A stretch of 64,000 nt of DNA from Pseudoalteromonas sp. GCY (lineage in GTDB: Bacteria > Pseudomonadota > Gammaproteobacteria > Enterobacterales > Alteromonadaceae): NCBI RefSeq assembly GCF_016695175.1, contig NZ_CP068022.1, forward strand, positions 420,001-484,000. The letters are read 5' to 3'. The notes beneath the pieces were generated by a model. The model saw nothing but the letters and a program-made list of their open reading frames with translations, did no database searches and was not told the origin of the DNA. A program made the position numbers and the translations under genes. Below, piece by piece: positions 1,755-16,103 of the stretch (position 1 is its first letter; each line of letters starts with the position of its first letter).

Positions 1755-1831
1755 CGGCATATAGCGCAGCTTGGTAGCGCACTGTCATGGGGTGTCAGGG
1801 GTCGCAGGTTCAAATCCTGCTATGCCGACCA
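1755..1831 (+). tRNA. tRNA-Pro(GGG)
   Basis: 77-base cloverleaf. Acceptor CGGCATA pairs with TATGCCG, the D-stem is GCGC/GCGC, and the anticodon loop ATGGGGT gives anticodon GGG. The T-loop is TTCAAAT and CCA is encoded (1829-1831). The anticodon stem CTGTC/GTCAG has one T-T mismatch, as I recall also for E. coli proL. It reads the CCC/CCU proline codons. Confidence 0.95.
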
Positions 1832-2525
1832 GCTTTTCCTTACCCTATTCAATAAGTTAACTTCATTAATTTCCTTTCACAAAATACTCGGTATTAGTAC
1901 GGTAGTATTGTAACTTTCCGATTTTCGTTCGTTATTCCTGTTTATACTTATGAACTTTGTTTTCTTTAACGTACTAGTGACTAACCTCAATGAGCATCGT
2001 TAGCGACTCCTTTCAATGTCGACGCCTTAAAACAATGTAAGAAAAATTCCTATCCAGAAACAAAGCCTTAAAAAACGAAATAGTTCTGACGGCTAATTCA
2101 GCTTGAATAGATTTGCCGAAATAAGAACACTAAAAATAGATTGCTGATATAGGCTGTTAAGTGTTTTCTTCCGTCACAACCTCTCACTTTAAACTTTAAA
2201 CTTTAAACTTCAAACAGTGTAATTTCTACTTCCAGTACTCTACGTGACCAGACCAAAAGGCATGCATTACTCAGGTTTGGATTATTTGTGCCTGTTCCAA
2301 TATGTCGGCTCTGCTCCTAGTCTCTATTTTCCAGTTAATTAGTAAAATGAAAATGAGGGACTCTTAACATACTTTATAGCTATAACGCCTTATAAATCGG
2401 CTATTTCACAGTAGTTTTCAACTAACAGCAGCAATCACAAAAACAATATATTTACATTAAAGTAATAATACTGACAAATAACCTACCTAGTATTGCGTGA
2501 CTTTCAATTAAGCACGGAGATTAAA
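1832..2525. other. Long non-coding gap with a short tandem repeat
   Basis: Nearly 700 bp of AT-rich DNA between the tRNA and the nuclease gene. I see no convincing gene. The only structure is four tandem copies of the 7-mer ACTTTAA at 2186-2213, the last copy degenerate. The gap follows a tRNA 3' end, a common integration site, but no duplicated tRNA 3' segment is visible. Confidence 0.5.
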
Positions 2526-3293
2526 ATGAAATTCGCAATACTTATGCTTGCAGTCAGTGCGACTGCAAATGCAAACACCAACATATGTAGCAACTACGGT
2601 TGCCCAACTGGCACACCATCAAGTAATGATATCGTTGAACGACCTATATATGTGCTTAGCAATAATCGCGCAACAAAGTTTGCGGACTGGGTAGCATACA
2701 AAGTCACACCAAGCACAATTGATGGACCAAGCCGTTCGAGGACTTGGAAATCAGACCCTAAAATTGCAAGTAGATACACGCTAGAGCCGAGTGACTATAG
2801 CGATGCGTGGGCAACTATCCATACAGATAGAGGTCATCAAGTGCCTTTGGCGTCGTTTTCCAATACACCCAATTGGAGCGATACTAACTACCTCTCGAAC
2901 ATTACCCCACAATCATCAAACCTTAATCAAGGCCCATGGGTTAAATTAGAGAATGCAGTGAGAAGTTTAGTGCGAACGGGCGAAAATGCCTATGTGTTCA
3001 CGGGTCCCTTGTATGAATATTACTTTGCTACATTGCCTGGTGCTGATGAATCTCACACTATTCCGTCAGGCTATTTTAAGGTCGTTGTCACAATAGCTGG
3101 CTCAAATGTGAAGGCTTCTGCTTTTATCATGGAGCAAACTTCTGGTAGATATCTTGATTACTGCAAAACAGAAGTAACCATTGACGAAGTAGAACAAAGA
3201 GCAGGCCTGAATATCCTACCTAGCCTGCCAAGCTATAAAGCCACCGACATTGAGGGTCGAGTCGGCGGTCTTAGCTCACAACTAGGTTGCTAA
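2526..3293 (+). CDS. Secreted DNA/RNA non-specific endonuclease (NUC1, beta-beta-alpha-Me)
   Basis: 255-residue nuclease with an N-terminal signal peptide (MKFAILMLAVSATANA, cleavage probably before NTN). The catalytic motif DRGH sits in TDRGHQVPLASF, the arrangement of Serratia nuclease in which His is the general base, and a downstream Asn-rich NLNQGPW segment fits the Mg-binding helix. The frame is open upstream to a TTG at 2493, but the ATG at 2526 has a GGAGA site five bases upstream and begins the signal peptide, so I start there. A role in nutrient scavenging from extracellular nucleic acids is inferred. Stands alone between terminators. Confidence 0.85.
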   Translation: MKFAILMLAVSATANANTNICSNYGCPTGTPSSNDIVERPIYVLSNNRATKFADWVAYKVTPSTIDGPSRSRTWKSDPKIASRYTLEPSDYSDAWATIHTDRGHQVPLASFSNTPNWSDTNYLSNITPQSSNLNQGPWVKLENAVRSLVRTGENAYVFTGPLYEYYFATLPGADESHTIPSGYFKVVVTIAGSNVKASAFIMEQTSGRYLDYCKTEVTIDEVEQRAGLNILPSLPSYKATDIEGRVGGLSSQLGC

Positions 3294-3392: not shown

Positions 3393-5021
3393 TTACTTTT
3401 CATGCCATTTTACGGTTATGTTTTTGACTCGGAATTTCCCATTGGCCTGCCTGTCACAGTGGCTCTGGTTGGTACGTTCAATATGAATGTTTGGCAGGTC
3501 TACCTGCGAGGCTTCCACTTCACTAAGTTGCTCTAAACACATAAGTTGGGTCACTTCACGGAGCGCATTATCTTCGACTAGATTTTCAACTAAACGTTTG
3601 CCTTTTTTCCTGTTCACTACATTACTTTCGCTTTTATTCTTTGAATGTAACTTGGGCATTGAAAACGTACTGCCTGCAGGATAAAACGAATAGTAGAAAT
3701 GCTGTGGCTTATGGGTTTCAATCACAACTACGCCCTGCTTACCAAGTACCGAGAACTCCTCTTCAGTACTTTCAAATTTTAGTGCTGTGGTTTCATCCAC
3801 ACCAAAACCAAATTTTTGGCCGCTTTTAAGTGCTAACACCGCAAGCCTAAAACTTCTGCCTCTTTCACTAAAATGCGTATCTAAAACGCCAAAGGAAAAG
3901 ACTCCTAAGCCACCTGTAGCATCATAAGTTAATGCATCGGCATTTAGCTTGCCACATCTACCATGCTTTTCGCAGTGTTGTACTGGAGCAGAAGCATTTA
4001 TCGCGCCATTTAATATAGCTTCGATGCTGCTACCATTGGTGATCATGGGAACATAACCGAAGGCATTTTTTCCGCCAGCCTGCACCGCTGTTCCGGCACT
4101 TGTACCGATAATTATCGGTATCTCCTTTAGGACTTCAGTCCAAGGATAAGGCGTTTGCTTATCGGTAGCATACATTACTAGCTTAGTGAGTGATTGATCA
4201 CCGCCGTTAAACATGATCGCATCCGCATTTACCAACTGCTGTTTCACCTTCTCAATCCCTTGCTGGCAAAGATTATATTCGGTTAATGTTCTATCTGGAT
4301 AAATGACTTCACGATTATAAACCCCATTGAGCTGGTTACGATACCTATCTAGGTTTTCACAGTCATTGCGACTAAGCGCCGCGGCTAATGCTGGAGTAAG
4401 GGGGAACCATTGAGCATTAACATCGTAGCTTTGAAATAGTCCTTCATAGAAATCAGCAGACTCATAAGGATCACGAGATGATGCAGTGACAAGCAGCAGT
4501 CTTTTGGTTTTTGTCTTGCCAATGCGCTTAGCAATATCCTCTATGATTTCAGTACTCGCTGGCTCATTATTTCCGTTAGTATTAACTATTTCAGGTAGAC
4601 GTTTATGCTGATACAGCAAGGGCAGTTCAAGCATATCGAAGAAGAAGTTATATTCTTTATCACTCCAACTGCGATATAAGCCTTCATCAAATTGTTTCGC
4701 ATGCTGCGCAAGCTGTAGTTTATATAAGACTTTGTTCGATGGTAATTTCTCAAGCAGTTTAAGGGTGCGCCTTAGGTGCGCGCGATTGTTAGTTGGCCAA
4801 CCTTTAGTGAATCTATTTATTGCTTTTTCATCAACAGAAAACAACGAATGTGTTTTCACAGCCGTTGAAAATTCGACATTTTCTGCACAATTTTTTGTAG
4901 CCATACTAGAGCAGGTTTTGAGTGCCCCGCCAATCAGATAAAGTGTTTGCGCAGAAGAGGTTAAGCTGAAGAAAAGCGTACCCACAGTTAACACTGCGGT
5001 TATAAAAAACACAACATTCAT
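3393..5021 (-). CDS. Secreted cyanophycinase-like peptidase, family S51
   Basis: 542 residues from the ATG at 5021; an upstream in-frame TTG at 5033 overlaps the probable GGA ribosome site and is less likely. The N-terminus is a signal peptide ending near SSAQT, so the enzyme should be exported. S51 hallmarks are all present: the first strand LYLIGGAL, GGDQ (about residues 273-276), the nucleophile elbow GTSAGTA with Ser308, DTHFSERGR (about 381-389, containing the likely catalytic His) and GFGVDETTA. Known cyanophycinases cut poly(Asp-Arg) to beta-Asp-Arg dipeptides. Unusually, about 135 residues are inserted between the first strand and the second (RLLLVTASS), and there is a roughly 110-residue C-terminal extension. 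Divergent from the TonB receptor. Other acidic or isopeptide polymers remain possible substrates. Confidence 0.82.
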   Translation of the reverse strand: MNVVFFITAVLTVGTLFFSLTSSAQTLYLIGGALKTCSSMATKNCAENVEFSTAVKTHSLFSVDEKAINRFTKGWPTNNRAHLRRTLKLLEKLPSNKVLYKLQLAQHAKQFDEGLYRSWSDKEYNFFFDMLELPLLYQHKRLPEIVNTNGNNEPASTEIIEDIAKRIGKTKTKRLLLVTASSRDPYESADFYEGLFQSYDVNAQWFPLTPALAAALSRNDCENLDRYRNQLNGVYNREVIYPDRTLTEYNLCQQGIEKVKQQLVNADAIMFNGGDQSLTKLVMYATDKQTPYPWTEVLKEIPIIIGTSAGTAVQAGGKNAFGYVPMITNGSSIEAILNGAINASAPVQHCEKHGRCGKLNADALTYDATGGLGVFSFGVLDTHFSERGRSFRLAVLALKSGQKFGFGVDETTALKFESTEEEFSVLGKQGVVVIETHKPQHFYYSFYPAGSTFSMPKLHSKNKSESNVVNRKKGKRLVENLVEDNALREVTQLMCLEQLSEVEASQVDLPNIHIERTNQSHCDRQANGKFRVKNITVKWHEK

Positions 5022-5510
5022 GATAAATTCCAAACAAATTTGTTAAAAACGACTTGTCAGCACAAAAACGCTTGTGCTATAAATTTTAATGAACATTGCG
5101 AAGCGCAAGCTAGCACACGCTGGTTTGCATTGTCAAAAAACACGAGATGAAAATATGTTGAAGAATGCGTTCAAATTTGTTTGCTACTTCTACTCACCTC
5201 ACTACCTTTCTGAGTGGTTCGACGAGTAGACACACGGTGTAAAGCCGTGGCGTTGTCTATTAATTGCAACCCCACCTCTTGATTTCTATAAAAATTAAAC
5301 GGCTGGCTTAAGGCGTACTATCGCGATTATTTTTCGTAGTGGCGTGGTTTTTATCTGTCCAATTGAAACTGACCTATTGTTTTTAACGCTTTTTAAGCAC
5401 TGACGATTGCGAAGTTTCAATGCGGTAGAGCAATAAACACAACAAATAAATTCTACAGCAACGCCATTCGCCTGTACCAAGCCGCTCATCAACAGAAAGT
5501 AGGTGAAGTA
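5022..5510. promoter_or_regulatory. Divergent promoter region of the cyanophycin locus, with a stem-loop
   Basis: About 490 bp between the divergent cyanophycinase and receptor genes, which should hold both promoters. A bulged stem-loop at 5228-5258 pairs AGACA/TGTCT and CACGG/CCGTG. I searched by eye for a TGAAT-W4-ATTCA arginine-repressor box and found none. Confidence 0.4.
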
Positions 5511-8435
5511 ATGTACAACAAACTATTCGTAGCAATTTCAGCAGCCTTGGCTGCTTCAAGTTTTAATACTCATGCAGAAGAACAAACAAATCAAAACGTA
5601 AAAGCCGTTGAAAGGATTGAAGTCACGGGCTCTCGCATAAAAGGCGTTGATTTAGAAGGCACACAGCCCATTACTATTTTGAGCTCAGAAGACATAGATC
5701 GCTCAGGTGCTTCCTCAATTTTCGAGTTACTTCAAGACCTTCCTCAATTAAAAGGTGGCTCTGGCACATTCTCAACAAGCGAAAGTGGCAGTACGTCAAC
5801 CTCAACACCCGCGGGGCAAGCAGCAGCCAGTTTACGAGGCATGGGTCCTTCAGCGACGTTAACCTTGATCAATGGTCGTCGTGTCGCGCCAAGCTCTTTT
5901 GCGGCGGGCACACAAAACTTTGTTGATGTAAACGCCATCCCCTTGGCGGCAATCGAACGAGTTGAGATCTTAGCGACTGGGGCGTCCGCAATCTATGGAG
6001 CCGACGCCGTTGCGGGTGTGATTAACTATATTCTTAAAGACAATTATGATGGTGCAGAACTTGAGGTTAGCTATGGTAACAGTCTTGTAAGCTCTGATGA
6101 GGGCAAAACACAAGTCAATCTAATTTGGGGAACTGAAGTTGGTAATGGCAGCGTTATGTTGTTTGCAGATTTTTACGACCGAAACCAATTTAACGCAACG
6201 GATAGAGACTTCTTGGCAACTCCCAACTTAGTTAACGGATATTCTTACCTTCCTAAACTCAACAATACGCCCAATATTTATTATTACAGCAGTCGCGACG
6301 GTAATGAGCTTCCAGCACCTGGCTGTATGAGCCAGCTGGTTACCACTGAGTATGGGGAGCAGATCTGTGCTTACTATGGTAATCAAGATGATGTGCTAAG
6401 CACACCATTTGAGAGTATGTCTGGTGGTGCGATGTTCAATCAGCAGGTTGGCGAGTTAACTTGGAAAAGTGAGTTTTTTATCAGTAAAACAAAATCGACG
6501 GCTTATTCAACCCCAGCTGCAATCAATCAGATTGATGACAGTGAAGGTCCATGGGTGAGAGAGGATGCCCTCTTCATTTATAGCGACGCAAGCGGTAACA
6601 ACTCGCTACTTGATTCACTTTACATCGACCCATTCAACACACTACTTGGACAGGAGCAATGGGGGTTTCAGTTTGATGCTCGCTTTACCTCACCCCGCAC
6701 CATTGAAGTCAAAAGCCAAAATATGCGATTGGTTTCGAGCCTAGAAGGGCAACTAGGCGAATGGGATTGGGTGTCTGGGATTATGTTCTCTGAATCTAAA
6801 TCAGATCAGGTGGCCACCGATGGGGTATACAATCGTTATAAGTTTCATGCAGCTTTGGCCGGGGAGTTATGTGGTGACGGGAACATTGCCAACATTAACG
6901 ACGGCCAGTTAAGCTGTACTAATAGTAACCTTCTCGACTTTTATAACCCATTCTTAGTAGGCAATACCACTAACGATGCAACACTTGCACTTACCAAAGC
7001 ACGCCCAACCCGAGAAGGTACAAGCCGCATTTACAGCTGGGATTTTACTGTATCGGGTGAGCTCTTTTCTTGGCAAGATATCGCGGTACAGTCCTCGTTT
7101 GGTGTCGAAGCACGAAAAGAAGAGCTGTCGGACACCCCTTCAAATGATGCGGTTGCAGATGCTGCCAACGATTACTTAGTTGATGTATTTGGTTATGGCT
7201 CTAGCATCGCGGACGCAAAAAGAACGCAGCTAGGTGCATTTGTAGAGCTATACATTCCAGTAACAGAAACAGTAGAAATGCAGGTGGCTGGACGATATGA
7301 CCACTTTGACGACTTTGGCTCAACTTTTAATCCAAAAATCGGCATAAGCTATCGCCCTACTGATGCCCTAATGTTACGGGCCGGTTGGTCTACTTCTTTT
7401 AGAGCACCGTCTTTAACGCAGGCGGGGGTAAAGTTGAGAACAACGACTTCGACCTTCGATTGCGGCACGAATCAAGCTGTCGCCGATCTGTATTGTGAGG
7501 GTGATGGCACGCAAGTTACGGTTAACTCCTTAGAGCTTGGTAACAGCCAACTTAATGCAGAAGAGTCTGAATCTATTTCTCTTGGTTTAGCCTGGAGCCC
7601 AACTCAAGATACCACTATCGCGATTGATTACTGGCAATTTGAATATACCGACGTTATTGATACAAATATGACCGCGGTACTCAGTCGTGCGATTACAGAT
7701 CCGTCGTTGCGTCATTGTGGCCTTGTACCCGATGGTCAGATGGGCATTTCGTATGATGAAGATGTGTGTAGTGTAACCGATACACAAGGTTTGAGCATAG
7801 ATCAAAACGGCGCTGATCTAAGCGAAATTTTGGTGGCTTATATCGATGAATTTGACCCTCGTGCTCAAAGCCTACAACTATATCGCGATCATGTTATTCA
7901 ATTAGAGAACACAGGTAGCCAAGATATTGCTGGGTTGGACATTAAATTTAATCATAGATTTAGATTTGATAACGCTGACTTAACCGTGAAACTGGATGCA
8001 ACTCATTACCTTGAATACGAACGCAATAAACCTGGTTCTGATCTGAGTGAAGAACTTGTTGGTACCTTTAGATACCCTGAAAATATAGGCAGAGTTTCAG
8101 TGACTTATAACGCTGATAATTTTTATGTCTCGCTGGGTGCAAACTATACTGACAGTTATGAGGACGACATCGAAGGGCTACGTGGTCGAGAAATCAACGA
8201 GTTAGCTGAACTTGGGCAACTCGATAGTGAAGGGAAACGAGATGTTGATAGCTGGACAGTGGTTGATGTTAGTGCGGGTTATGAGTTCTCAGCGCACCTA
8301 AAAGTGAGGCTCAGTATTGATAATCTTTTCGATAAAAAGCCGCCAGTGGTTTATGGCTCATCGCGAGGCTTCGACTCAATCAATCACAATGCATTAGGCA
8401 CTAACTATACTCTCGGATTAACTTACCAGTTCTAA
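5511..8435 (+). CDS. TonB-dependent outer-membrane receptor, probable peptide importer
   Basis: 974-residue TonB-dependent receptor. Signal peptide through THAEEQ. The plug domain is at about residues 35-165 (IEVTGSRI, SLRGMGPSATLTLINGRRV, AIYGADAVAGVINYI). The 22-strand barrel ends in the aromatic terminal signature GLTYQF. The ATG at 5511 follows AGGTGAAG. It has the long, plug-rich style of receptors used by marine Gammaproteobacteria for polymers and oligopeptides rather than a typical siderophore receptor, but substrate cannot be read from sequence. Its position between a cyanophycinase and a carrier plus isoaspartyl dipeptidase suggests import of cyanophycin fragments. Confidence 0.85.
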   Translation: MYNKLFVAISAALAASSFNTHAEEQTNQNVKAVERIEVTGSRIKGVDLEGTQPITILSSEDIDRSGASSIFELLQDLPQLKGGSGTFSTSESGSTSTSTPAGQAAASLRGMGPSATLTLINGRRVAPSSFAAGTQNFVDVNAIPLAAIERVEILATGASAIYGADAVAGVINYILKDNYDGAELEVSYGNSLVSSDEGKTQVNLIWGTEVGNGSVMLFADFYDRNQFNATDRDFLATPNLVNGYSYLPKLNNTPNIYYYSSRDGNELPAPGCMSQLVTTEYGEQICAYYGNQDDVLSTPFESMSGGAMFNQQVGELTWKSEFFISKTKSTAYSTPAAINQIDDSEGPWVREDALFIYSDASGNNSLLDSLYIDPFNTLLGQEQWGFQFDARFTSPRTIEVKSQNMRLVSSLEGQLGEWDWVSGIMFSESKSDQVATDGVYNRYKFHAALAGELCGDGNIANINDGQLSCTNSNLLDFYNPFLVGNTTNDATLALTKARPTREGTSRIYSWDFTVSGELFSWQDIAVQSSFGVEARKEELSDTPSNDAVADAANDYLVDVFGYGSSIADAKRTQLGAFVELYIPVTETVEMQVAGRYDHFDDFGSTFNPKIGISYRPTDALMLRAGWSTSFRAPSLTQAGVKLRTTTSTFDCGTNQAVADLYCEGDGTQVTVNSLELGNSQLNAEESESISLGLAWSPTQDTTIAIDYWQFEYTDVIDTNMTAVLSRAITDPSLRHCGLVPDGQMGISYDEDVCSVTDTQGLSIDQNGADLSEILVAYIDEFDPRAQSLQLYRDHVIQLENTGSQDIAGLDIKFNHRFRFDNADLTVKLDATHYLEYERNKPGSDLSEELVGTFRYPENIGRVSVTYNADNFYVSLGANYTDSYEDDIEGLRGREINELAELGQLDSEGKRDVDSWTVVDVSAGYEFSAHLKVRLSIDNLFDKKPPVVYGSSRGFDSINHNALGTNYTLGLTYQF

Positions 8436-8440
8436 TGGAG

Positions 8441-8470
8441 AAATGGGGGTAACCCCATTTTCGTTCTTTA
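8441..8470 (+). terminator. Hairpin (attenuator-like) between receptor and carrier genes
   Basis: AAATGGGG (8441-8448), loop GTAA, CCCCATTT (8453-8460), then TCGTTCTTT. It lies directly after the receptor stop and before the next start codon. It is strong enough to lower downstream expression, as expected where a receptor is needed in larger amounts than the carrier and peptidase. Confidence 0.6.
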
Positions 8471-8471
8471 T

Positions 8472-9875
8472 ATGCGAAAAACTATAAAAATGCCTGACGC
8501 ATTCGTTATTTTGCTGGTGATTGCAGGGCTGTGCTATGTGGTGTCACTTTTTATTTTGCCCGGCTCGTTCGAGATAGCAGGAACTAGTGATACCGTTGCA
8601 CTTTCACAGTTTTCACAAGCACAAACACCCGCACCTTTACCTTTGTTTGCCACTCAAGGTGAAGCAGGATTGTTCAACGTACTATTTGAGGGACTCGTGA
8701 GTGGCGACAGAAATGGAGCCGCTATTGGGGTTATCGCTTTTATCCTAATAACAGGTGGTGCATTTGGCGTGTTAATGCAGACCAAAGCAATAGACAATGG
8801 CATTATGGCGCTGATCAATTCTACACAAAGGATTGATTGGCTATTTATCCCTAGTCTGTTCATCACCTTTGCTTTGGGTGGTGCCATATTCGGCATGGGT
8901 GAAGAGGCTATCGCATTTTGTATTGTGCTTTACCCTATCATGATGAGGCTTGGCTATAACGCCCAAGTTACCGTGCTTGTGACTTATGTCGCAACGCAAA
9001 TCGGGTTTGCAACTTCCCCCATGAACCCTTTTAGTATTGCCATTGCGCAAAGTATCGCCCAGTTACCGGTATTCTCAGGCGCAGAGTTTAGGGTTGCTCT
9101 CACCACCCTATTCACATTCGTCGGACTGGTTTTTGCGGTGCGCTACGCTGCGAAAGTACGAAAAAAGCGTGAGGATATCATTGCAAGTACTTCGCCCACA
9201 GAGCTACAGCTTGTTGATAAGGCGTTATTGCTTGCATTTTTCATGGTAATTATTTGGGTCATTTACGGTGTGACTGCAAAAGGATACTACATCCCCGAAC
9301 TTGCCACTCAGTTTTTTGTTCTGGGGCTGGTCATCGCCCTAATAGCTAAATTGGGAGGGCGCCAGTCTATTAGCCAATCAGTGGCAGCATTTAAAACAGG
9401 AAGCGCAGATCTGCTGCCTGCAGCCTTGCTAGTTGGTCTCGCCAAAGGGCTTGTACTATTACTAGGCGGGAGCGATCTTCAAACACCTTCAATCTTAAAT
9501 ACTGTGCTTTATTATGCGGCTACCTTAATAACCCAAGTCCCTGATGCGTTGGCAGCTTGGTTTATGTATGTATTCCAATCTCTATTCAACTTCTTTGTTT
9601 CTTCGGGCTCCGGACAAGCAGCTATTACTATGCCCATTATGGCACCTCTTTCAGATTTAATTGGTGTTTCTCGGCAAACTTCTGTACTGGCTTTTCAGCT
9701 AGGAGATGGACTGAGCAACATCATTATCCCAACCTCAGCAAGCTTAATTGGCTGCTTAGGGGTTGTTAAACTTTCTTGGAACGATTGGGTGCAGTTTATT
9801 TGGCGCTTTATGTTACTTCTTTTCACATTAGCAAGTGTGGTCACCATATTTGCTCACTTAACAAATTACCAATAA
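8472..9875 (+). CDS. YfcC-family inner-membrane carrier, likely dipeptide or basic amino-acid transporter
   Basis: 467-residue membrane protein of the YfcC/DcuC superfamily with about twelve hydrophobic segments. Typical family stretches are visible: GAIFGMGEEAIAF around residue 140, ATSPMNPFSIAIAQ around 180, and SGSGQAAITMPIMAPLSDL near 385. Family members are annotated as basic amino-acid antiporters or C4-dicarboxylate carriers. Here the gene lies 36 bp after the receptor and 4 bp before iadA, so the best inference is passage of beta-Asp-Arg (or released Arg) across the inner membrane. The ATG at 8472 has no clear ribosome site; an ATG at 8490 is a possible alternative. Confidence 0.75.
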   Translation: MRKTIKMPDAFVILLVIAGLCYVVSLFILPGSFEIAGTSDTVALSQFSQAQTPAPLPLFATQGEAGLFNVLFEGLVSGDRNGAAIGVIAFILITGGAFGVLMQTKAIDNGIMALINSTQRIDWLFIPSLFITFALGGAIFGMGEEAIAFCIVLYPIMMRLGYNAQVTVLVTYVATQIGFATSPMNPFSIAIAQSIAQLPVFSGAEFRVALTTLFTFVGLVFAVRYAAKVRKKREDIIASTSPTELQLVDKALLLAFFMVIIWVIYGVTAKGYYIPELATQFFVLGLVIALIAKLGGRQSISQSVAAFKTGSADLLPAALLVGLAKGLVLLLGGSDLQTPSILNTVLYYAATLITQVPDALAAWFMYVFQSLFNFFVSSGSGQAAITMPIMAPLSDLIGVSRQTSVLAFQLGDGLSNIIIPTSASLIGCLGVVKLSWNDWVQFIWRFMLLLFTLASVVTIFAHLTNYQ

Positions 9876-9879
9876 ATTT

Positions 9880-11046
9880 ATGCTAACACTTATTAAAAAT
9901 GTTGAGCTTTTTACGCCGAAAAAGCTCGGAAAGCGTGATGTCCTTTTTGCTGGGAAAACAATCCTCGCAATCGAGGAGGATATCGAAATAAACAGCAACT
10001 TGGAGTTCGCCATCGTTGACGGACAGGGATTTATATTAACCCCCGGATTTGTCGACTCTTTAGTGCATTTTAGTGGCGGTGGTGGCGAAGCCGGTTTTGC
10101 GAGCCGTACCCCGCAAATGAACCTCACTGATGCAACGCTATATGGGATCACGACTGTCATTGGTGCACTGGGCACCGACGATGTCAGCCGAACACATACC
10201 GATCTAGTTGCTAAAGCGAAAGGGTTAAAACAAGAGGGGTTGAACGCCTTTTGCCATACAGGCTCTTACCACTTGCCAATAAAAACGCTTGGTCACAGTA
10301 TCCGTCACGACATTATGTATATCGACGAAATCATCGGTGTTGGGGAAGTTGCAATCGCCGATCATCGAGGTACGCAACCTTCGGTAAAAGAGCTTACAAC
10401 CATTGCAGCAGAAGCGAGAACTGCAGGTCTATTGAGTGGCAAACGTGGTACCGTTTCCATTCACGTTGGAACAGGTGTTGAGCACTTACAGCTTCTCCAT
10501 GGAGTAGCACAGTCTAGTGAAATACCGCTCAGTCAGTTTTACCCAACTCATATGAATCGAAATGCCGAATTGCTAACTGCGGGGATTGCATTTTGCAAAG
10601 CTGGCGGAACCATCGACTTTACCACTAGCACCACCGAGTACGACTTAGCCAATGGTGAGCTAGCAGCAGCCGAAGCGTTGGCATATTGCTTAGACAAAGG
10701 CGTGAACTCACAACAACTGACCATGAGCTCCGACGGACATGCGAGCTTGCCAATTTATAATGAACAAAATCATTTAGTTGGATTTGAAGTGGGTTCCGAG
10801 TCTTCGCTGCTTGGTGCGTTCCAGCAAGCAGTGCAGCAATTTAATGTGCCGCTTGACTTAGCTCTGCAATCTATTACGTCCAATCCAGCAAGGATTTTAG
10901 GATTAAATAAAGGTGAGATCTCTGTCGGTAGTGATGCCGACCTTGTTTTGCTCGACGCAAACACGCTAACGCCACATAGCGTTTGGTGTAACGGTCAAAA
11001 AATGGTTGAAAGTCATAAGCCACTAGTCACTGGTTTCTTCTCTTAA
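9880..11046 (+). CDS. iadA: Isoaspartyl (beta-aspartyl) dipeptidase, M38 amidohydrolase
   Basis: 388 residues, collinear with E. coli IadA: the GGGGEAG loop, RTP, LGTDDVSR, SDGHAS and the C-terminal ADLVLLDA barrel-closing strand are all recognisable. Cytoplasmic; hydrolyses beta-Asp-X dipeptides. Metal ligands His63, His195, His224 and Asp285 are present. Two ligands differ from the E. coli enzyme: the first His of the HxH motif is Leu61 (DSLVH in place of DQHVH), and the position of the carboxylated lysine is Glu156 (GVGEVAIADHR). Starts 4 bp after the carrier gene, so co-transcribed. In this context it would split beta-Asp-Arg into aspartate and arginine. Confidence 0.85.
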   Translation: MLTLIKNVELFTPKKLGKRDVLFAGKTILAIEEDIEINSNLEFAIVDGQGFILTPGFVDSLVHFSGGGGEAGFASRTPQMNLTDATLYGITTVIGALGTDDVSRTHTDLVAKAKGLKQEGLNAFCHTGSYHLPIKTLGHSIRHDIMYIDEIIGVGEVAIADHRGTQPSVKELTTIAAEARTAGLLSGKRGTVSIHVGTGVEHLQLLHGVAQSSEIPLSQFYPTHMNRNAELLTAGIAFCKAGGTIDFTTSTTEYDLANGELAAAEALAYCLDKGVNSQQLTMSSDGHASLPIYNEQNHLVGFEVGSESSLLGAFQQAVQQFNVPLDLALQSITSNPARILGLNKGEISVGSDADLVLLDANTLTPHSVWCNGQKMVESHKPLVTGFFS

Positions 11047-11138: not shown

Positions 11139-11864
11139 TCAAAAATAGCTGTACAACATAAGTGCCCCAGCGCTAAACATAACCACATTTTCTGTTAATG
11201 ATATAAAGCCTAAAGGCACATCAGTGTCACCACCAACGCATGCACATTTGAGCGCTCTTTTATCAATATATACGGCCTTAAACACCGAGATTGCGCCTAT
11301 AAACCCTATGAATATTGCCACTGGCGCATAATAAATGGCAGGCAAAGTTGTTAGCATACAAACGCCGGCATATAACTCCAAGTAGGGGTAAGCATACGCG
11401 TATTTTAGATGACGCATCGCTAACAAGTCGTAAGTGATAAAGGAGTTTGTAAAGCTATGAACATCCCGTATCTTTTGTACAGCGAGTAACAGCATAGAAA
11501 ACCCAATAAAGGGCATTACCCATTCGACAAGATTATCGACAGGAAATTGTGTCGCGAATGTGACCAGCAGCGCGACTAAAAATATCGAAAGTACTGGCCA
11601 GTATACGTTTTTCTTTTCCTTATGTGACGGCTTGCCTAGATATCGGCGTAGCGCTTCATAGCCACCAATATGTTGATTGTTAATAAATATTTGTGGCGTA
11701 GTGTCAACGTTATGAGTGGCTTTAAAATCATCCGTCTGTTTCCTTGATTTGAGTACTCTGTCGTCTACACAAAAACCCTCTCGTGAAAGCAAATCCTTAG
11801 CCCTGAGACCAAAAGGGCAAATGTGCGATGAGGTATGCATTCGATAAAGTGTCGCATTTTTCAC
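11139..11864 (-). CDS. Glutaredoxin-MauE fusion membrane protein
   Basis: 241 residues. Residues 1-80 form a glutaredoxin fold with a monothiol-type active site CPFG (first Cys at 16), a cis-proline segment TPQIF and a GG glutathione-site pair. Residues about 88-240 carry four to five membrane helices of MauE/DoxX type ending in a conserved CxC-GG segment (LKCACVGGDTDVPLGF). Such fusions are thought to move reducing power or thiols across the inner membrane; the substrate is unknown. Starts at GTG 11864 behind a GGGAG site. Monocistronic, convergent with iadA. Confidence 0.75.
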   Translation of the reverse strand: MKNATLYRMHTSSHICPFGLRAKDLLSREGFCVDDRVLKSRKQTDDFKATHNVDTTPQIFINNQHIGGYEALRRYLGKPSHKEKKNVYWPVLSIFLVALLVTFATQFPVDNLVEWVMPFIGFSMLLLAVQKIRDVHSFTNSFITYDLLAMRHLKYAYAYPYLELYAGVCMLTTLPAIYYAPVAIFIGFIGAISVFKAVYIDKRALKCACVGGDTDVPLGFISLTENVVMFSAGALMLYSYF

Positions 11865-15185: not shown

Positions 15186-16103
15186 ATGCAAAGACAATAT
15201 GCGATAGGTACGCCCGGCGTACCTTGGACTTCCAAAGAAAAAACAGTGTGGTTAGAAAGCCAATCGATCAAACGCTCATACTCTGAAGAGGTCGTAACTC
15301 AAATTGAAGCGCTCAAGCACGCTTTTGACGTCACCGAGTATGGTCAGCTTGACTACCCCAACCAAACTTATTCTCTATATGCATTAACAACAAAAAACTG
15401 GCGGCAAAACAAACCAACCATACTCGTTACCGGTGGCGTGCATGGCTATGAAACAAGCGGTGTACATGGTGCGCTCGCTTTTGCAAAATCAGAAGCACAA
15501 CAATATGAACAGGCTTATAATTTCATTATCTTGCCTTGCTTGAGTCCTTGGGGCTATGAAACGATAAATCGTTGGAATCCAGAAGCCGTTGACCCTAATC
15601 GCTCTTTTTATGCGGATAGTCCAGCACCGGAGTCTCGATCAGCAATGGACTTTGTCAATAAGAAAACAGCAGATATTCTGTGTCATGTTGATTTACACGA
15701 AACCACAGATTCTGATAATTCTGAATTCCGCCCTGCATTGGCAGCAAGAGATGGTAAAGAGAATCACAATTGGAATATTCCTGACGGTTTCTATTTAGTC
15801 GGACATACTCAAAAACCGGAAGCTAAATTTCAAAAACGTATTATCGAAGAAGTGGCTGCGGTAACGCAAATTGCCGATGCCGATGATCATGGGCAGCTAA
15901 TCGGTGTTGATTTAGAGCAGCACGGTGTAATTAATTATGATGGCACTGCGCTAGGCTTATGTATGGGCATGACAGATGCCGCTTTTGTAACAACAACTGA
16001 AGTTTACCCTGATGGTCAAAACGCAACACCAGAAAACTGTATCGCGGGTCAAGTGGCAGCAATTAGAGGGGCCATTAAGTACTTACAAAGCGAAGGTCTT
16101 TAG
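15186..16103 (+). CDS. M14-family zinc carboxypeptidase or deacylase
   Basis: 305-residue soluble protein without a signal peptide. The zinc ligands are readable: HxxE in GGVHGYETSG, a distal His in HVDLHET, and the catalytic Glu in TTTEVYPDG; the substrate-carboxylate Asn-Arg pair is in DPNRSF. The compact layout is closest to the AstE/AspA or murein-amidase-like branch of M14. Likely cytoplasmic hydrolysis of a peptide or N-acyl amino acid; substrate unknown. Confidence 0.75.
   Translation: MQRQYAIGTPGVPWTSKEKTVWLESQSIKRSYSEEVVTQIEALKHAFDVTEYGQLDYPNQTYSLYALTTKNWRQNKPTILVTGGVHGYETSGVHGALAFAKSEAQQYEQAYNFIILPCLSPWGYETINRWNPEAVDPNRSFYADSPAPESRSAMDFVNKKTADILCHVDLHETTDSDNSEFRPALAARDGKENHNWNIPDGFYLVGHTQKPEAKFQKRIIEEVAAVTQIADADDHGQLIGVDLEQHGVINYDGTALGLCMGMTDAAFVTTTEVYPDGQNATPENCIAGQVAAIRGAIKYLQSEGL

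Follow-up and report, generated by a model that had tools for sequence, protein, structure and literature searches.

What does a bacterium do with a secreted hydrolase, a TonB-dependent receptor, an inner-membrane carrier and an isoaspartyl dipeptidase that are encoded side by side, and how would it know when to make them? We addressed this question for a locus of Pseudoalteromonas sp. GCY at positions 3393..11046 of the window, i.e. the whole analysed stretch of 64,000 nucleotides (contig NZ_CP068022.1, positions 420,001 to 484,000). An earlier note had read these genes as a route for scavenging cyanophycin, the nitrogen store of cyanobacteria, which has a backbone of Asp whose side chains each bear an Arg. 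Our analysis indicates that this is probably a cyanophycin-scavenging locus and that it would be controlled by a leader peptide encoded ahead of the receptor gene. All four genes, including the hydrolase gene divergent from the other three, lie where the earlier note had them and belong to the families it had named. The features of the locus are:

3393..5021, minus strand: secreted S51 hydrolase, a CphE-like cyanophycinase by profile, PDB relatives and alignment (GGDQ, GTSAG, DTHFSERGR, GVDE).
5155..5229, plus strand: leader open reading frame (ORF) of 24 codons, MLKNAFKFVCYFYSPHYLSEWFDE-stop, recognized by its conserved peptide end, its substitution pattern and a single exact site in the genome.
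5190..5229, plus strand: predicted alternative pairing within the leader, CTACTC with GAGTAG across the stop codon, one pair with a compensatory change.
5227..5259, plus strand: predicted RNA hairpin starting on the leader stop codon (z score -1.68 in the window).
5511..8435, plus strand: TonB-dependent receptor of 974 amino acids with Plug and barrel domains, conserved in position.
8472..9875, plus strand: YfcC-type inner-membrane carrier of the DcuC family (DcuC match; YfcC 583.9 bits, cut-off 500).
9880..11046, plus strand: isoaspartyl dipeptidase IadA of family M38 (447.2 bits, TIGR01975 curated cut-off 331.25).
10060..10062, plus strand: IadA codon 61, by sequence alignment a Leu at the expected first metal-binding His of HxH.

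The S51 ORF spans 3393-5033 on the minus strand, with a likely start ATG at 5021 and an N-terminus that is hydrophobic by eye. The three plus-strand genes, from which it diverges, are separated by 36 bases (receptor to YfcC) and 4 bases (YfcC to IadA). The search for the same gene set in relatives that the earlier note had suggested found it repeatedly. S51 genes were present in 29 of 60 genomes searched, own genome counted, and 32 stretches of DNA were fetched around the S51 genes of relatives (fetched stretches are numbered L, searched genomes G). Thirteen of them show the same four-gene order, three coming from other families of the order; 18 carry S51 without partners (L044 and L061 near contig ends), and in L062 no S51 match was obtained. 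A named collection, on which the counts of named loci rest, comprises the best 80 of 87 IadA loci, 11 from Bacilli and 69 from Gammaproteobacteria. S51, receptor, YfcC and IadA have the order and orientation of the window in 49 of the 69 gammaproteobacterial loci, and YfcC adjoins IadA in 68. The 20 deviating loci include two at contig ends (L102, L110), IadA alone (L152), loci with the receptor or S51 missing or turned (L120, L121, L132, L135, L136, L151, L166), five of Microbulbifer type with another S51 gene behind IadA (L144, L155, L156, L160, L168) and five with S51, YfcC and IadA on a single strand (L137, L150, L158, L159, L162). Because YfcC adjoins IadA in 6 of the 11 Bacilli loci too, a role of YfcC as carrier of the IadA substrate is supported. 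Clustering of the ORFs from 41 chosen loci, which fall into 21 groups, recovered IadA in 21 groups, YfcC in 18, S51 in 15 and the receptor in 13, the next family reaching 7. In the genus, 108 genomes were searched: the same 41 of them have both IadA and YfcC above cut-off, and each of these also shows an S51 match scoring 326 bits or more (interrupted by a stop in G125); two further genomes have S51 without partners, intact in G104 and with a stop in G128. Cyanophycin synthetase (TIGR02068) above cut-off occurs in none of the 108, which bears out the earlier note on its absence. The four genes form a conserved unit, beyond chance.

Is the hydrolase a cyanophycinase? Its relatives in the PDB are the cyanophycinases 7uqv, 7uqw and 3en0. 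We aligned S51 proteins at the residues named in PMC3235067 (this and the other cited papers were available as excerpts), counting as complete the set Gln101, Ser132, Asp172, Thr or Gln at 173, His174, Arg or Lys at 178, Arg180, Arg183 and the Glu, in CphB numbering. The window hydrolase has the catalytic Ser in GXSXG, the His and the Glu, as well as Gln101, Asp172, Arg178, Arg180 and Arg183. The earlier note had credited it with all cyanophycinase motifs; these were found, the sole change being Thr in place of Gln173, where the characterised extracellular enzyme CphEal likewise has Thr (PMC3235067). The complete set was found in 83 of 101 aligned sequences, namely every locus-linked one plus L173 and L174, with Thr at position 173 in 76 and Gln in 7, the latter from Microbulbifer and strain NBT06-2 loci. 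The other 18, all unlinked, lack the Ser, 15 of them also the His and 13 the Gln. An S51 gene alone was rejected as a mark of the locus, given these 18 paralogs and the intact S51 without partners in G104. The Ser-less proteins (L041-L048, L050, L052, L053, L055-L061) are mostly 540-640 amino acids long, and their stretches contain no IadA, YfcC or linked receptor. Since seven of these stretches share an M14 gene with the window (15186-16103), the locus may have decayed in place there.

The 24-codon ORF between the divergent S51 and receptor genes, absent from the earlier note, came to light when 63 S51-receptor intergenic regions (some genomes twice) were compared: the block they share is the end of the ORF, and YLSEW precedes the stop in 63 of 63 with an expression that permitted other letters. 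Different genera share this end, YLSEWF(D/N)E-stop. In 83 different leader coding sequences collected with a stricter expression, LSEW is followed by F/W, D/N and E/N, with Asp in 48 and Asn in 35 at position -2; that expression demanded LSEW, so the invariance of LSEW in this set is partly built in. For 41 non-redundant leaders from loci found via IadA, the ratio of nonsynonymous to synonymous differences (pN/pS) over 18 codons was 0.32 in frame, the two other frames giving 1.08 and 1.39 and the region downstream of the leader 0.97. Outside the motif (codons -18 to -10) it was 0.50 in frame versus 0.97 and 1.29, and for the last ten codons 0.20-0.21, a value partly built in by the LSEW-demanding collection. 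Because this substitution pattern is of the coding type, we infer that the leader is translated. As in leader peptides, a short ORF encoding a conserved peptide lies directly upstream. A riboswitch reading of the intergenic element was dropped, the conserved block being an ORF with low pN/pS; in Rfam the element matched only CRISPR-DR2 and MicX, both under the gathering score, and searches of Rfam, Pfam and NCBIfam assigned the leader to no RNA or peptide family.

Where else does this peptide occur? It is present in 61 of the 69 named gammaproteobacterial loci (60 by one expression; L168, where His replaces the Tyr of YLSEW, by a looser one), and two of the eight loci without it are cut by contig ends. 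No leader was found in the 11 Bacilli loci, the 18 unlinked S51 stretches, L173 or L174. The own genome has one exact site; with three mismatches allowed, the reversed pattern already yields 10 sites against 16 for the true one, which is why the exact site alone was counted. Across the order, 47 sites were detected in 41 of 394 genomes, and the reversed-pattern control gave none among the matches listed. Forty-six precede locus operons, S51 or receptor genes, or an Aeromonas IadA operon: 32 lie at an IadA/YfcC locus (assigned from coordinates in G066 and G075, and truncated by the contig end ahead of IadA in G599), eight at the Aeromonas-type operon (IadA seen in seven, one cut by a contig end), three before lone S51 genes (L276, L287, L289) and three before lone receptors (L270, L272 on the minus strand, L278). 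The remaining match, in G788, differs in its peptide, has unrelated neighbours and was counted as chance. Among the Aeromonas-type stretches L261 is Aeromonas fluvialis, and the other seven would belong to the genus by a shared group code. These operons pair IadA with an ABC importer of the Lys/Arg/Orn type. The one in L259 encodes a Lys/Arg/Orn-type binding protein (274.1 bits, above the cut-off of 256.35); a HisP-like ATPase in L259 and a HisQ-like permease in L266 both stay under their cut-offs. In the whole class, the leader occurs in 2 of 369 genomes, and these are the two in which IadA carries the LxH change described below, among eight with IadA above cut-off.

Within the genus, a pattern that accepts either Tyr or His finds 60 sites. 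They are spread over 41 of 108 genomes, precisely the ones with IadA and YfcC. Nineteen of the sites are second leader sites with another N-terminus and the same end, His replacing Tyr. In all 17 that were fetched, the next ORF, 77 to 479 bases on, encodes a secreted PPC-S51 protein; Pfam confirmed both domains in 7 of 7 tested, and 5 of 5 tested scored below the TIGR02069 cyanophycinase cut-off. All 17 proteins contain GGDQ and GTSAG, and 16 also have the DTHF motif together with its Arg residues; the catalytic Glu was seen by eye in L326 only. The PPC-S51 protein occurs in 17 of the 108 genomes, all within the 41. The two unfetched second sites (G003, G116) lie at contig ends; the G116 protein is at the start of another contig and none was found in G003. 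L332 (G088) carries a tandem PPC-S51 duplication, the leader-proximal copy being cut short at 332 amino acids, without DTHF, with the full-length copy behind it. The shared peptide end thus appears to be the signature of a scattered cyanophycin regulon.

The last enzyme of the route raises a question of its own. The best PDB relatives of the window dipeptidase are isoaspartyl dipeptidases; we take PDB entry 8dqn to be Leucothrix mucor IadA. Its nearest named relatives come from P. flavipulchra and Pseudoalteromonas sp. S2755, with 99 percent identity. Of the ligands named for the binuclear metal site (HxH, a Glu/Lys bridge, two His and Asp; PMC10206079), the window protein has Leu for the first His, a change on which the earlier note had not remarked, and keeps the rest. 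Like the M38 enzymes of L. mucor (PMC10206079) and E. coli, it retains the substrate residues, and differs from them in this Leu. The same LxH stands in every linked copy examined, in 83 of 94 aligned IadA proteins (the 11 from Bacilli are HxH) and in 118 of 120 protein relatives among the matches listed, two being without the motif. Seven other metal or substrate positions that were examined are identical in all 94. Judged by alignment, the window protein is an IadA-family protein with a changed metal site. Loss of the first His in every linked copy would also fit a dead or altered enzyme in a locus that does something else. We regard this as rather unlikely, as seven invariant positions are not a pattern of decay and a single-metal IadA is plausible; E. 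coli NagA is reportedly a precedent for such an enzyme. A quick-method tree of 65 IadA proteins takes two changes to LxH, and LxH may have a single origin.

LxH is found at each leader site where the motif is visible. The converse, a strict tie of LxH to the leader, was rejected: LxH occurs without leader in L343-L349, L355, L356, L358 and L359, the last two belonging to a second locus type. Outside the locus, LxH is also found in Aeromonas and in IadA genes without leader elsewhere in the order, and HxH likewise occurs within the order (L350-L352, L354, L357). Most of the leaderless LxH genes in L343-L349, L355 and L356 stand apart from any S51, YfcC or receptor match; an exception is L349, with YfcC and a fragment of S51 close by. 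Six further IadA of the class have HxH, each with a CphB-like S51 gene no more than 4 kb away, and L207 and L210, the two judged by eye, have a cyanophycin-synthetase-like neighbour.

How would these parts work together? The secreted hydrolase would cut cyanophycin outside the cell or in the periplasm, fragments of the polymer or dipeptides would cross the outer membrane through the TonB receptor, YfcC would carry beta-Asp-Arg across the inner membrane, and IadA would split it into Asp and Arg. This is the route of the earlier note, which gene order, co-occurrence and active site fit; the identity of the substrate is what we infer. At the leader, a stalled ribosome would mask both the hairpin and a Rho entry site close to it, letting transcription continue into the receptor gene. 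TnaC acts comparably for tryptophan. We give even chances to the broader proposal that YLSEWF(D/N)E-stop marks a new family of arrest peptides which sense a cyanophycin breakdown product on the ribosome and switch on a scattered regulon in several gammaproteobacterial families. Its members would be secreted depolymerases, TonB receptors, inner-membrane importers and the LxH isoaspartyl dipeptidase.

The RNA around the leader stop bears on this mechanism. A hairpin is predicted after the stop, often beginning on the stop codon itself, with a mean z score of -2.04 over 66 non-redundant sequences, 52 of them below -1. C exceeds G 30-60 bases past the stop in 53 of the 66, compared with 39, 41 and 34 in the other three windows, which weakly favours Rho. 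An intrinsic terminator behind the leader was not detected by the scan, both terminator-like sites lying upstream of it. The third-position choices of Tyr -12 and Glu -1 are associated (Fisher p 3e-6, 63 sequences, kinship uncorrected). A short ORF ahead of an operon with alternative predicted pairings could equally be a classical attenuator that reads charged tRNA, as in the trp or his operons. The leader, however, has no run of Arg or Asp, its position -2 swaps Asp and Asn while YLSEW stays constant, and the two leader types of the genus have only the C-terminal end in common; we therefore consider a charged-tRNA attenuator improbable. Conservation at the amino acid level would also fit a functional peptide acting in trans, be it a small protein or the precursor of a modified peptide. 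This appears even more improbable, as the N-terminal half varies between leader types, the ORF sits upstream of its targets and is repeated before scattered ones, and no modifying enzyme or other family recurs broadly beside the 41 chosen loci. A small-molecule arrest peptide is the reading of the leader that we prefer.

Several observations weigh against a cyanophycin locus under leader control. On the RNA side, the CTACTC-GAGTAG pairing over the stop is thinly supported: in 26 sequences 93.8 percent of cells pair versus 92.9 in shuffles, and one pair is compensatory, in four sequences. Shuffles matched the number of compensatory pairs in 341 of 500 cases, the number of cells in 1 of 500 and the covariation score in 0 of 500. 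Four folded Aeromonas leaders have positive z scores in the coding part and show no such folding, and the window has no terminator-like T run at the hairpin. On the pathway side, IadA lacks one metal ligand and its activity is putative, a dipeptide could cross porins so that a receptor is not obviously needed, and no additional gene family, for Arg use or otherwise, recurs broadly beside the 41 chosen loci. The second locus type (Rheinheimera and kin: L137, L150, L158, L159, L162) has S51, YfcC and IadA and lacks the leader. The window hydrolase reaches 84.7 bits (6.9e-24) with TIGR02069, under the curated cut-off of 126.6, and 22.7 with Pfam S51, just under the cut-off of 23.9; because of the TIGR02069 score we call it cyanophycinase-like. 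IadA enzymes take many beta-aspartyl dipeptides, even in cyanophycin clusters (PMC10206079), so that other isoaspartyl peptides may also be substrates. This promiscuity and the low hydrolase score would suit a locus for isoaspartyl peptides generally, from damaged proteins or other beta-linked polymers. We think this unlikely, since the S51 partner retains the tested cyanophycinase binding residues, including three Arg positions (one of them Lys in 7 of 83), and other lineages of the locus have an S51 above the cyanophycinase cut-off (182.8 bits in L144 from Microbulbifer and 190.1 bits in L104 from strain NBT06-2, the only two Gln173 types scanned). Moreover, the Aeromonas operon of L259 couples IadA with a binding protein of the Lys/Arg/Orn type. 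Cyanophycin scavenging is the best reading of the locus.

The second locus type comprises L137, L150, L158, L159, L162, L358 and L359, each with S51, YfcC and IadA on one strand and no leader. In the first five the S51 protein reads GSSAG. A receptor from a different subfamily is encoded upstream in L137, L158, L162, L358 and L359, and a LuxR-type regulator is found in L137, L158 and L162 (Pfam on L137 only).

How much of this was known? The idea of cyanophycin scavenging is not new. For P. tunicata, of the same genus, a secreted putative cyanophycinase and scavenging were proposed, and the excerpt describes no locus (PMC2536512). The earlier note held a TonB import arm for cyanophycin to be undescribed; Tang et al. 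2012 (PMC3400609) had in fact proposed cyanophycin as the substrate of a TonB receptor in Citromicrobium JLT1363 whose gene lies, as in the window, close to that of a cyanophycinase, and the excerpt names no IadA, YfcC or leader. Cyanophycin utilization loci, with clustered cyanophycinase, iadA and transporter in genomes without cphA1, are attributed to Ben Hania et al. in PMC10206079, which also names Flammeovirga pacifica. The window locus has the same clustered genes and no cphA1, its enzyme being only cyanophycinase-like, and adds the divergent CphE-type enzyme, TonB receptor, YfcC, LxH IadA and leader; compared through the citing paper, some of these may be shared. CphE and CphEal of Pseudomonas (PMC3235067) are, like the window enzyme, secreted S51 proteins with the triad and Thr at Gln173, whereas the window protein is longer (about 540 amino acids versus a 1,260-bp gene) and below the family cut-off. 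Among the matches listed, our literature search found no link of YfcC to cyanophycin or aspartyl dipeptides.

As for the leader, the closest mechanism is CruR (bp2923) before Bordetella bfrG (PMC9426467), a translated upstream ORF that controls a TonB-receptor operon through stalling and Rho. CruR is a protein of 145 residues that, according to the excerpt (PMC9426467), uses CXXC to sense copper and stalls translation at RAPP; the window leader has no such motifs. Other elements before receptors are named in the excerpt of PMC2659441. Our searches on cyanophycin, leader attenuation before TonB receptors and arrest peptides, mostly in open-access papers, showed no description of the leader among the matches listed. 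In the short TnaC leader of the tryptophanase operon, the nascent peptide itself arrests the ribosome together with a small molecule; its sequence shows no obvious similarity to that of the window leader. The locus thus represents a conserved version of a type already described. Within these searches, the leader peptide and the regulon that it would mark are new, and so is the LxH change of IadA.

The locus is flanked upstream by tRNA-Pro(GGG) and a DNA/RNA non-specific endonuclease gene (window 1755-1831 and 2493-3293) and downstream by a gene for a Glutaredoxin-MauE fusion protein (11139-11864, minus strand).

Little is known about how heterotrophs sense and take up cyanophycin. If the proposal is true, a peptide tag before the target genes would make a regulon readable from sequence and would point to polymer receptors and hydrolases, and the leader would be a new candidate for a small-molecule-sensing nascent peptide in ribosome studies. 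The LxH dipeptidase, in turn, would offer a direct test of the minimum set of metal ligands for this enzyme class.

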